Origin: Streptomyces sp. S4.7 | Lineage (GTDB): Bacteria > Actinomycetota > Actinomycetes > Streptomycetales > Streptomycetaceae | DNA: 64,000 nt | NCBI RefSeq assembly: GCF_010384365.1 | Contig: NZ_CP048397.1 | Coordinates: 3,286,001 to 3,350,000 of the forward strand | Direction of reading: 5' to 3' | Notes under the pieces: generated by a model | Seen by the model: only the letters and a program-made list of their open reading frames with translations | Told to the model about the DNA's origin: nothing | The model's database searches: none | Position numbers and translations under genes: made by a program | Shown here: positions 35,470 to 39,068 of the stretch, piece after piece | Layout of the letters: each line of letters begins with the position of its first letter | How positions within the stretch are numbered: position 1 is the stretch's first letter

Positions 35470-35528
35470 TCCTCACCGACCTGAATCCGTACGTTTGAGC
35501 GTTTGTGCGACGGGCTAGATTTCGGCAC

Positions 35529-36953
35529 ATGGTCTCCGAGCAAGCCGCCCAGGTCCTCGTCGCGTCCAATCGCGGCCCCGTCTCGTACACACTCGGCGAG
35601 AACGGCGAGCTGACCTCCGGGCGCGGTGGCGGCGGTCTCGTCTCGGGTCTGTCGGCCATCGGGCCGGACACGAACGCGGTGTGGGTGTGCGCGGCCCTCG
35701 GTGACGGCGACCGCGAGGCCGTACGGCGCACCGGCGGCCGGCTGGACACCGCCGACACGGGCGGGCAGCGGGTCAGGATGCTCGGCATCCCGCCGGAGGT
35801 ATACGCGGACGCGTACAACGGCGTCGCGAACTCCACGCTCTGGTTCGTCCACCACCTGCTCTACCAGACACCGCTGGAGCCGGCCTTCGGCTCGGACTTC
35901 CGGGCGCAGTGGGCCTCCTACGAGGCGTACAACCGCGCGTTCGCGGAGGCCCTGGCCGACGAGGCGGGCGACGGCGCGGCCGTACTGATCCAGGACTACC
36001 ACCTGGCCCTGGTGCCCGGCATGCTCCGGGCGCTCCGGCCCGATCTGCGGATCGGGCACTTCTCGCACACGCCGTGGGCCCCGGTCGACTACTTCCGGCT
36101 GCTGCCCGACGACATCGCGCGCCAGCTGCTGCGCGGCATCCTCGGCGCCGACCGGGCCGCGTTCCTGACCCGCCGCTGGGCCGACGCGTTCACCGCGTGC
36201 TGCGAGGAGCTGCTGGGCGGGACGGGGAAGACACGGATCGGCGTGCACGGCCTGGGCGCCGACGCGGACTTCCTGCGCGAGCGTGCGAACCGGCCCGACG
36301 TCGACGAGCGGCTGGCCGAGCTGCGGGAGCAGATCGGCGGCTCGGACGGGGCGCCGCGCAAGACGATCGTGCGGGTGGACCGTACGGAGCTGTCGAAGAA
36401 CATCGTGCGCGGGATGCTCGCCTACCGGCAGCTGCTGGCTGACCGTCCGGAGTGGCGCGAGCGGGTCACGCATGTGGCGTTCGCCTACCCGTCCCGGCAG
36501 GACCTGGCGGTCTACCGCGACTACACGGCCCGGGTCCAGGAGGTGGCCGACGAGATCAACTCCGCCTATGGCACGCCCGGTTGGACGCCGGTGGTGCTGC
36601 ACGTCAAGGACGACTTCGCGCGCTCGCTCGCCGCGTACCGCCTCGCGGACGTGGCCCTGGTCAACCCGATCCGCGACGGCATGAACCTGGTCGCGAAGGA
36701 GATCCCGGTCGTCTCGGAGGAGGGCTGCGCCCTGGTGCTGTCGCGCGAGGCGGGCGCCTACGAGGAGCTGGGCGACGACGCGCTGGTGGTCAACCCGTAC
36801 GACGTGTCGGCCACGGCGGCGGCCCTGCACGAGGCCCTGACGATGGACGACGACGACCGCACGGCGCGTACGAAGCGCCTGGCCGCCGCCGCGACGGCAC
36901 TGCCGCCGCAGCGGTGGTTCCTGGACCAGCTGGAGGCGCTGCGGAACGGCTGA
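35529..36953 (+). CDS. otsA: Trehalose-6-phosphate synthase
   Basis: The 474-aa GT20 enzyme transfers glucose from UDP/GDP-glucose to glucose-6-P. Motifs: LVASNRGPVSYT, GRGGGGLVSGL, DYHLALVPGMLR, IGHFSHTPWAP, VDRTELSKNIVRGMLAY with the conserved Arg/Lys pair, and DGMNLVAKE. ATG 35529 (MVSEQAAQ) was chosen. The matching phosphatase gene otsB lies at 38.2 kb on the other strand, with the decayed SDR gene between them. Confidence 0.95.
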   Translation: MVSEQAAQVLVASNRGPVSYTLGENGELTSGRGGGGLVSGLSAIGPDTNAVWVCAALGDGDREAVRRTGGRLDTADTGGQRVRMLGIPPEVYADAYNGVANSTLWFVHHLLYQTPLEPAFGSDFRAQWASYEAYNRAFAEALADEAGDGAAVLIQDYHLALVPGMLRALRPDLRIGHFSHTPWAPVDYFRLLPDDIARQLLRGILGADRAAFLTRRWADAFTACCEELLGGTGKTRIGVHGLGADADFLRERANRPDVDERLAELREQIGGSDGAPRKTIVRVDRTELSKNIVRGMLAYRQLLADRPEWRERVTHVAFAYPSRQDLAVYRDYTARVQEVADEINSAYGTPGWTPVVLHVKDDFARSLAAYRLADVALVNPIRDGMNLVAKEIPVVSEEGCALVLSREAGAYEELGDDALVVNPYDVSATAAALHEALTMDDDDRTARTKRLAAAATALPPQRWFLDQLEALRNG

Positions 36954-36957
36954 GCGC

Positions 36958-38123
36958 CTACCAGTCGACGGGCCGGTAGTCCTTGAGCAGTAAGTACGCC
37001 GTGGACGGGGCTGCCCGCCTGCCCCTGCACGATCGGGTGGTAGATCCGCGCCGCGCCGTCCACGATGTCCAGCGGCGGGCGCCAGCCGGTGGCGGCGTGC
37101 CGCTCCCTGGCGGGCAGCGGTTTCTCGTCGGTGACCCAGCCGGTGTCGACGCTGCACACGTGGATGCCGCGCTCGGCCAGCTCACCGGCGCTGGTGCGGG
37201 TGAGCATGTTGAGGGCGGCCTTGGCCATGTTGGTGTGCGGGTGACCGCTCGTCTTCCTGTGGACCGCGAACTGCCCCTCGACGGCCGTCACGTTGAGCAG
37301 ATAGCGCCGCGCGTGGGGTGAGGACTCCAGCAGGGGCGGCAGCCGGTCGGCGAGCAGGAACGGGGCCACCGCGTTGACCAGTTGGACCTCCAGCAGCTCC
37401 GCCGGGTCGATGCCGCCGAGCCGGGCGGTCCAGGAGTTCTCGGCGGCGGTCTCGGTCAGCAGCCCCGCCTCGTCCACGGTCGCGAGCACGGAACCGTCGC
37501 TCTCGGGTGTGCCGGTGTTACGGGGCACGAGCCCGGCGGCCCAGGACCGGCCCGCCACCCCGGTGTTCACGGCGCCGGGGACGCCGAAGCCCGGGGCGGT
37601 CCACACGGCGGGGGCCTTGGCGGCCGGCAGCGCGGTGCGCGCCGGTGCGGCCTCCGCGGCGGCCAGGGCGGAGTAGGCGCGCGGCGAACGGCGCAGCGTC
37701 TGGGCCGCGTTGCGGGCACGGCGCCGGACGAGGTTGTCGCGGGCGCAGTCGGGGCCGAGGCGGTGGTAGAAGTGGTGGATCCGGCGGTAGTGGTCCTCGC
37801 AGACGTAGCAGCGCTGGGGACGCCCCAACTCGCCGGCGAACTGGTCGTCCCGCACCGGATCCGCACCGGCCGGCGGCGCGTCCGTCGTCCGGTCCGGCGC
37901 GCCCATGACGGTGCCGGCCTGGATCCCGGCGTCCGCCGTCGCACGGGCGCCGCGGGTGGCCGACCGGCGTTTGCGCCGCCCGTCCCGGAAGAGTCCACTG
38001 GCTGCGCGCTCCAGCCGCTCCCGCCGCGGATCCTCGATCGACAGCTCCCCGCGCCTCGTTCAGCAACTCCAGCGTCGCCCGTATCCGGTCGTCCGTCGGA
38101 CCGTCCATCAGGTCGTCGTCCAT
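36958..38123 (-). pseudogene. Decayed short-chain dehydrogenase/reductase gene with three lesions
   Basis: The original start is MDDDLMDGPTDDRIRATLEL at 38123. An extra G in GCGCGGGGAGCTG (about 38042-38045) shifts the frame; reading one base on restores a sensible ELSIEDPRRERLERAAS and GLFRDGRRKRRSATRGA, continuing to MGAPDRT at 37906. Next comes a Cys-containing CYVCEDHYRRIHHFYHRL segment. At ~37711 RRRAR jumps to NAAQTLRRSP: the whole TGxxxxxG cofactor-binding part expected before NAAQ is missing. TNMAKAALNML (catalytic Lys) is kept. Near 36989-36996 a duplicated AGTA (TACTTACT on this strand) shifts the frame so the normal end LLKDYRPVDW is out of register. The product cannot bind NAD(P). 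Confidence 0.85.
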
Positions 38124-38225
38124 CGAGCCCTCGCCCCCGCTCGCACCGAACGACCATGATGCGTGAGGGGGCCGCCCGGTGTCGCCCGCGTTTCGGCGCG
38201 GCGCCCGAGATCTGGACCTCTGCTC

Positions 38226-39068
38226 TCAGAGGCGGGCGGACACCGCGGCGAGGAAGCCGGTCAGCGCTCCCGGGCCCGGCAGCACCAGGTCGGCCCGCGC
38301 GGCGAGTTCGGGGACCTCGCCCGTACCGCTGCACAGCAGCAGACCCGGATGGCCGTCGCCGCGCAGGGTGTCGACCGCGGCGAATGCCGGGAGGTCGCCC
38401 AGGTCGTCGCCGCCGTAGACGACCGTCTCGGCGCCGACCTCGCCGACGTACTCGCGCAGGGCCACGCCCTTGTCCACGCCGGGCGGGCGCAGTTCCAGGA
38501 CGAGGCGGCCCGGTTCGAGCATCAGGCCGTGCCGGGCCGCCAGGTCGGCGAGCGGTTCGCGCAGTGCGTCGAAGGCCCCCTGCGGGTCGGTGGCACGGCG
38601 GGTGTGGACCGCGACCGCCTGGCCCTTCTCCTCGATCCACGCACCGCGCCAGGAGTCGAACCGGGCGAGGAGTCCGGGGAGTTCGGCGCGGACCGCGGCG
38701 ACTCCGGGGTGCGGCTCCGGGGTCTGGACGGCGCCGCTGACCGCGTCCCAGCGTTCGGCGCCGTAGTGGCCGAGGACGACGAGGTGTTCCAGGCCGGGTA
38801 CGCCGGCGAAGCCGCCGTACCGTACGGCGACATCGGCCGGCCGGCCGGTGATCACCGCGACGGAAGCCACGTGGGGGGCGAGGGCTACGAGCGCGGGGAC
38901 GGCGCCGGGGTGGGCGCGGGCCTGTTCGGGGTCCGGGACTATGTCGGCGAGCGTGCCGTCGAAGTCGAGCGCGACGACGGCTTTCCCGGGCCGCGCGAGA
39001 AGCGCGGCCAGTCCTTCGGCGCCGGCGGGGGTGACGGGGGTCGGCAGGGGGTGCGGATGGCTGCCCAT
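38226..39068 (-). CDS. otsB: Trehalose-6-phosphate phosphatase
   Basis: The 280-aa HAD-superfamily phosphatase completes trehalose synthesis. HAD motif I is ALDFDGTLADI, motif II is AVITGRP, and the late motif is VVYGGDDLGDLPAF. Trehalose-phosphatase-specific parts are VLGHYGAERW, WIEEKGQAVAVHTRRA and the substrate cap ending LELRPPGVDKGVALREY. Minus strand, convergent with otsA across the SDR pseudogene. Confidence 0.95.
   Translation of the reverse strand: MGSHPHPLPTPVTPAGAEGLAALLARPGKAVVALDFDGTLADIVPDPEQARAHPGAVPALVALAPHVASVAVITGRPADVAVRYGGFAGVPGLEHLVVLGHYGAERWDAVSGAVQTPEPHPGVAAVRAELPGLLARFDSWRGAWIEEKGQAVAVHTRRATDPQGAFDALREPLADLAARHGLMLEPGRLVLELRPPGVDKGVALREYVGEVGAETVVYGGDDLGDLPAFAAVDTLRGDGHPGLLLCSGTGEVPELAARADLVLPGPGALTGFLAAVSARL

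Follow-up and report, generated by a model that had tools for sequence, protein, structure and literature searches.

The window, by which we mean the whole 64,000-nucleotide stretch of Streptomyces sp. S4.7 DNA that was analysed, contains two convergent, intact genes tied to trehalose, which we take to be otsA (35505-36953, plus strand) and otsB (38226-39068, minus strand), following the original prediction and general knowledge for their names. They flank the remains of an SDR-like gene on the minus strand (36958-38123), whose original ATG (38121-38123) and original stop (36958-36960) were placed by alignment with a 474-codon copy in another genome of the genus, G368. Two changes of frame are needed to follow an SDR gene along the minus strand from 38123 to 36958. 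Two open reading frames (ORFs) run through it: one of 201 codons from the original start (37518-38123), in which the frame is lost after about codon 25, and one of 382 codons from an internal ATG (36758-37906), which lacks the cofactor half and extends beyond the former stop into sequence antisense to otsA.

The otsA-otsB spacer of the window spans 36954-38225. Across the 56 genomes in which this gene pair, and only this pair, was measured, the median length of the convergent spacer is 72 nt; it reaches at least 1 kb in four of them (G040, G170, G158 and G147), and two further wide spacers came from other searches (G015 and G004; loci L197-L202 for the six). The wide spacers hold differing genes, namely an M24 peptidase, a trypsin-like/TPR protein, a beta-helix protein, a Fic protein, and a kinase with reductive-aminase-like and HxlR genes; the ORF examined in the G170 spacer gave no Pfam match. 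In one genome, G159, otsA and otsB lie on the same strand.

When otsB was used as a query against 392 genomes of the genus, 391 gave a match, the best being G368, at 95% nucleotide identity, followed by G044 at 89%. G368 carries an intact SDR-like ORF of 474 codons (L169:8586-10010, P0002) between convergent otsA and otsB, alike to the window relic in locus and orientation. Against its coding sequence, alignment places four length differences in the window copy: one additional nucleotide after nt 73, loss of nt 411-683 (273 nt, in frame), nine additional nucleotides in frame after nt 753, and four after nt 1390. On the minus strand of the window these correspond to a run of four G at 38047-38050 (C on the plus strand), one more than in G368, at which the frame is lost at codon 25; a deletion junction at 37712/37713, with about 2 nt of microhomology (CA) at its ends, where the nucleotide-binding segment has gone; an insertion at about 37634-37642, in a variable linker and probably harmless; and a 4-nt tandem duplication, AGTAAGTA, at 36989-36996, which puts the last eleven codons out of frame. 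A full-length product is blocked by the first, the second and the last of these. The original prediction, made from the window alone, had read a dead SDR gene with exactly these three lesions and had proposed alignment with intact Streptomyces homologues as a check; the G368 comparison reveals all three, with the AGTA duplication at precisely the coordinates given, the extra G a few nucleotides from where it had been noted (near 38043), and the loss of the cofactor-binding part, noted at 37711, at the junction above.

The protein sequence that survives in the window is clearly related to the G368 product: the internal in-frame ORF matches it at 89% over 246 residues (E 2e-135) and at 79% over 66 residues (E 7e-35) in two-sequence BLASTP, values that put the match above chance. 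The two copies differ in integrity, the G368 gene being open over 474 codons whereas the window copy has two frameshifts, the 273-nt deletion and a lost cysteine. This last change, C123G, falls in the remnant of a four-cysteine (Cys4) module (37745-37810, CYVC...GPDC), where the third cysteine has become glycine (codon 37754-37756), leaving three of the four cysteines of CYxC...CPxC. It is accompanied by K109E at the lysine that follows the second cysteine. Both sites are invariant in six intact outgroups and in the 40 relatives of a wider alignment (A2; see below), and the two belong to a larger set of window changes at positions invariant in those six outgroups.

Homologues were gathered as a sample, comprising the best 80 loci from one scan and the best matches from 199, 61, 392 and 391 genomes; among the matches listed, 166 homologue loci correspond to 135 distinct genes when compared over their last 150 residues. 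Within this sample a TGGRxKIG segment is present in 133 of the 135 distinct homologues listed, and 132 of the 135 have both this segment and the Cys4 motif. The three exceptions are the window copy, in which TGGRxKIG was deleted and the Cys4 motif is incomplete, a frameshifted copy (G162), and a copy ended by a contig edge (L102). Since both motifs occur together in 132 of the 135 distinct homologues listed and the rest are broken or cut, this family does not naturally lack the cofactor segment; natural absence had been named in advance as an observation that would overturn the reading of a decayed gene, and the segment is missing only from the window copy and the one truncated at a contig edge. 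The frameshifted homologue, from Streptomyces sp. CB02009 (L177, L060), belongs to the same subgroup as the window relic and is likewise broken. It has a single lesion, a gap of 4 nt immediately ahead of the glycine motif, and sits at a different locus with neither otsA nor otsB next to it. That gap lies in a draft genome, where an error is possible.

The Cys4 module is a trait of the whole family, judging from its sequences: C95, C98, C113 and C116 (in the numbering of the relative L059) are invariant in 40/40 aligned relatives in A2, which takes 40 of the best 80 loci and covers many actinobacterial genera. The description of the cysteine-rich N-terminal module as unusual thus holds for SDRs at large and fails within the family itself, where the module is normal. 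Because the N-terminal module of the intact protein matched zinc-ribbon-like Pfam entries (DUF2039 and DZR_2) only below their cut-offs, we go no further than to infer that it may bind zinc. We call this group the actinobacterial Cys4-SDR family, a descriptive name coined in this analysis; the window copy is a relic of it and no working member.

Several lines of evidence bear on what the ancestral protein was. The intact copy matches the Pfam families adh_short and adh_short_C2 (PF00106 and PF13561), and a predicted model of L059 (mean pLDDT 76) matches FabG structures in Foldseek with E about 1e-11, so that the family is predicted to have a Rossmann-type SDR fold, part of which would be missing from the relic. 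Canonical SDR motifs are TGxxxGxG and YxxxK. Compared with classical SDRs such as FabG, the Cys4-SDR family has TGGRxKIG for the first and TNMAK for the second, in addition to its N-terminal module. TNMAK (L059 positions T373-K377 in A2) aligns with YCTSK of PDB 3r1i, such that across the family the lysine is kept and threonine stands in place of the catalytic tyrosine of YxxxK; it is found in 166/166 loci among the matches listed, the window's own copies counted. The altered glycine motif and the threonine for tyrosine are both strongly conserved family-wide. Because threonine occupies the catalytic tyrosine's place in all 166 loci listed, an ordinary reductase role is uncertain, and the protein may bind a nucleotide while its redox role is altered or missing. 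From the sequences and the model, the ancestor was probably a nucleotide-binding SDR-like protein, for which we claim no substrate.

Substitution patterns were compared next. Synonymous divergence between the window and G368 is 0.143 for the SDR gene, 0.128 for otsB and 0.111 for otsA, similar values that fit the descent of one locus from their common ancestor. The window-G368 dN/dS of the SDR gene is 0.39 over 380 codons, inside the range obtained at the same codons for G368 against the six intact outgroups (0.32-0.42); the neighbours give 0.21 (otsB) and 0.17 (otsA). Polarised changes, with 41 ambiguous ones left out, number 15 synonymous and 14 nonsynonymous on the window branch and 5 and 10 on the G368 branch (Fisher p 0.34). 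Substitution counts thus give no signal of relaxed selection, so the lesions are probably recent, as is the death of the gene. With the gene intact in G368 and broken in the window, the loss dates to after their split.

Taken together, these observations are very probably explained by a gene of the actinobacterial SDR-like family, marked by its N-terminal Cys4 module, that became a pseudogene not long ago; it occupies 36958-38123 on the minus strand and as a pseudogene is ordinary in kind. The common ancestor of the window and G368 lineages would have carried the unbroken gene in the convergent otsA-otsB spacer, as the G368 copy suggests, and the window lineage would then have gained the 1-nt insertion, the 273-nt deletion and the 4-nt tandem duplication. 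The open frame and the length of the G368 gene and the other homologues suggest that the changes arose on the window side. Translation from the original start would leave the frame at codon 25 and yield only the 201-codon ORF, and a product begun at the internal ATG would lack the cofactor half, carry a foreign tail and presumably be non-functional.

It might instead be supposed that the living strain has an unbroken gene and that the lesions are errors of sequencing or assembly. They are read in a single assembly of the strain, and the extra G sits in a short G run, a context in which indel errors are common, so this lesion alone could be one. An explanation by error would nevertheless need three different kinds of it within one gene; of these, neither the loss of 273 nt nor the tandem duplication of 4 nt is typical of base-call errors, and the loss of the cysteine is an independent sign of decay. 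All ten neighbouring ORFs tested (the ones in the G368 stretch left after filtering by length and codon composition, a step that removed the SDR ORF itself) match between the window and G368 in one piece with no frameshift, and the strain's own genome is recorded as 100% complete, in 3 contigs. We regard error as very unlikely, in keeping with the original prediction, which had doubted it as a sole cause; the types of lesion and the ten frameshift-free neighbours both bear this out.

The remnant could alternatively be in use, the 382-codon ORF making a shortened protein that has no cofactor site and has taken a new role. The 273-nt deletion does preserve the frame, no stop interrupts the ORF between 37906 and 36758, and dN/dS does not exceed the values for intact homologues. 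Against this, the short form is absent from the other 134 distinct homologues listed, bar the one cut by a contig end, one cysteine of the Cys4 motif has gone, and the C-terminal tail, with a lysine invariant in 40/40 relatives, has been swapped for sequence antisense to otsA; on the sequence evidence, continued use of the remnant would be scarcely credible. Phase variation at AGTAAGTA was considered and found no support, there being just two repeat units.

Returning to the recently formed pseudogene, its distribution is narrow. Among 30 otsB loci fetched, of which 24 include a convergent otsA inside the stretch and 6 (G368 among them) show only otsB within 1.5-kb flanks, so that wider spacers are partly read, an SDR gene at the otsB locus occurs only in the window and in G368. 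The otsA-otsB spacer of G044, second-best match by otsB, is 96 nt long and has no SDR gene. The G368 gene, used as a query against 391 genomes, has no other match of at least 90% nucleotide identity among the matches listed, the next being G274 (80%, covering three quarters of the gene) and G039 (84%, covering a part), and neither otsA nor otsB was found within the stretches examined around the other homologous loci. As far as sampled, the insert appears restricted to the window and G368 pair.

Two possible clues to the origin of the insert were followed and set aside. Synonymous divergence between G368 and G274 is similar for the SDR gene (0.565), otsA (0.591) and otsB (0.638), and these high values support neither horizontal transfer nor relocation. 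When the homologous loci were compared for synteny, many common flanking genes were seen, among the first 25 clusters, only in G251 and G293, and shared synteny was dropped as an indication of source.

The genome of the strain itself (G000) encodes a full-length paralogue (C1:7065464-7066588) in a 508-codon open frame with 48% identity to the relic. It belongs to the same family, having the Cys4 motif, TGGRAKIG, HPHTNMAKA and a C-terminal LKDY, and differs from the relic in lying elsewhere on the chromosome with its frame open. With this paralogue present, we infer, the lost copy may not have been needed; the loss would probably have been tolerated since the copy was a lineage-restricted accessory one and a presumably redundant full-length member of the family exists elsewhere. 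A broader proposal, that accessory genes repeatedly settle in the convergent otsA-otsB spacer in Streptomyces, here with the gene intact in one sister lineage and decaying in the other, is tentative, and we consider it rather doubtful.

Among the titles and abstract openings consulted, nothing concerned this gene, a statement that applies to those texts and claims no absence from print. Annotations should flag the locus as a broken gene rather than list it as a short SDR, and as a pseudogene it has little wider weight. The G368 and window pair nonetheless provides a clean small example of accessory-gene loss, and the Cys4-SDR family, present in many actinobacterial genera and without the catalytic tyrosine, merits more attention than the dead copy.
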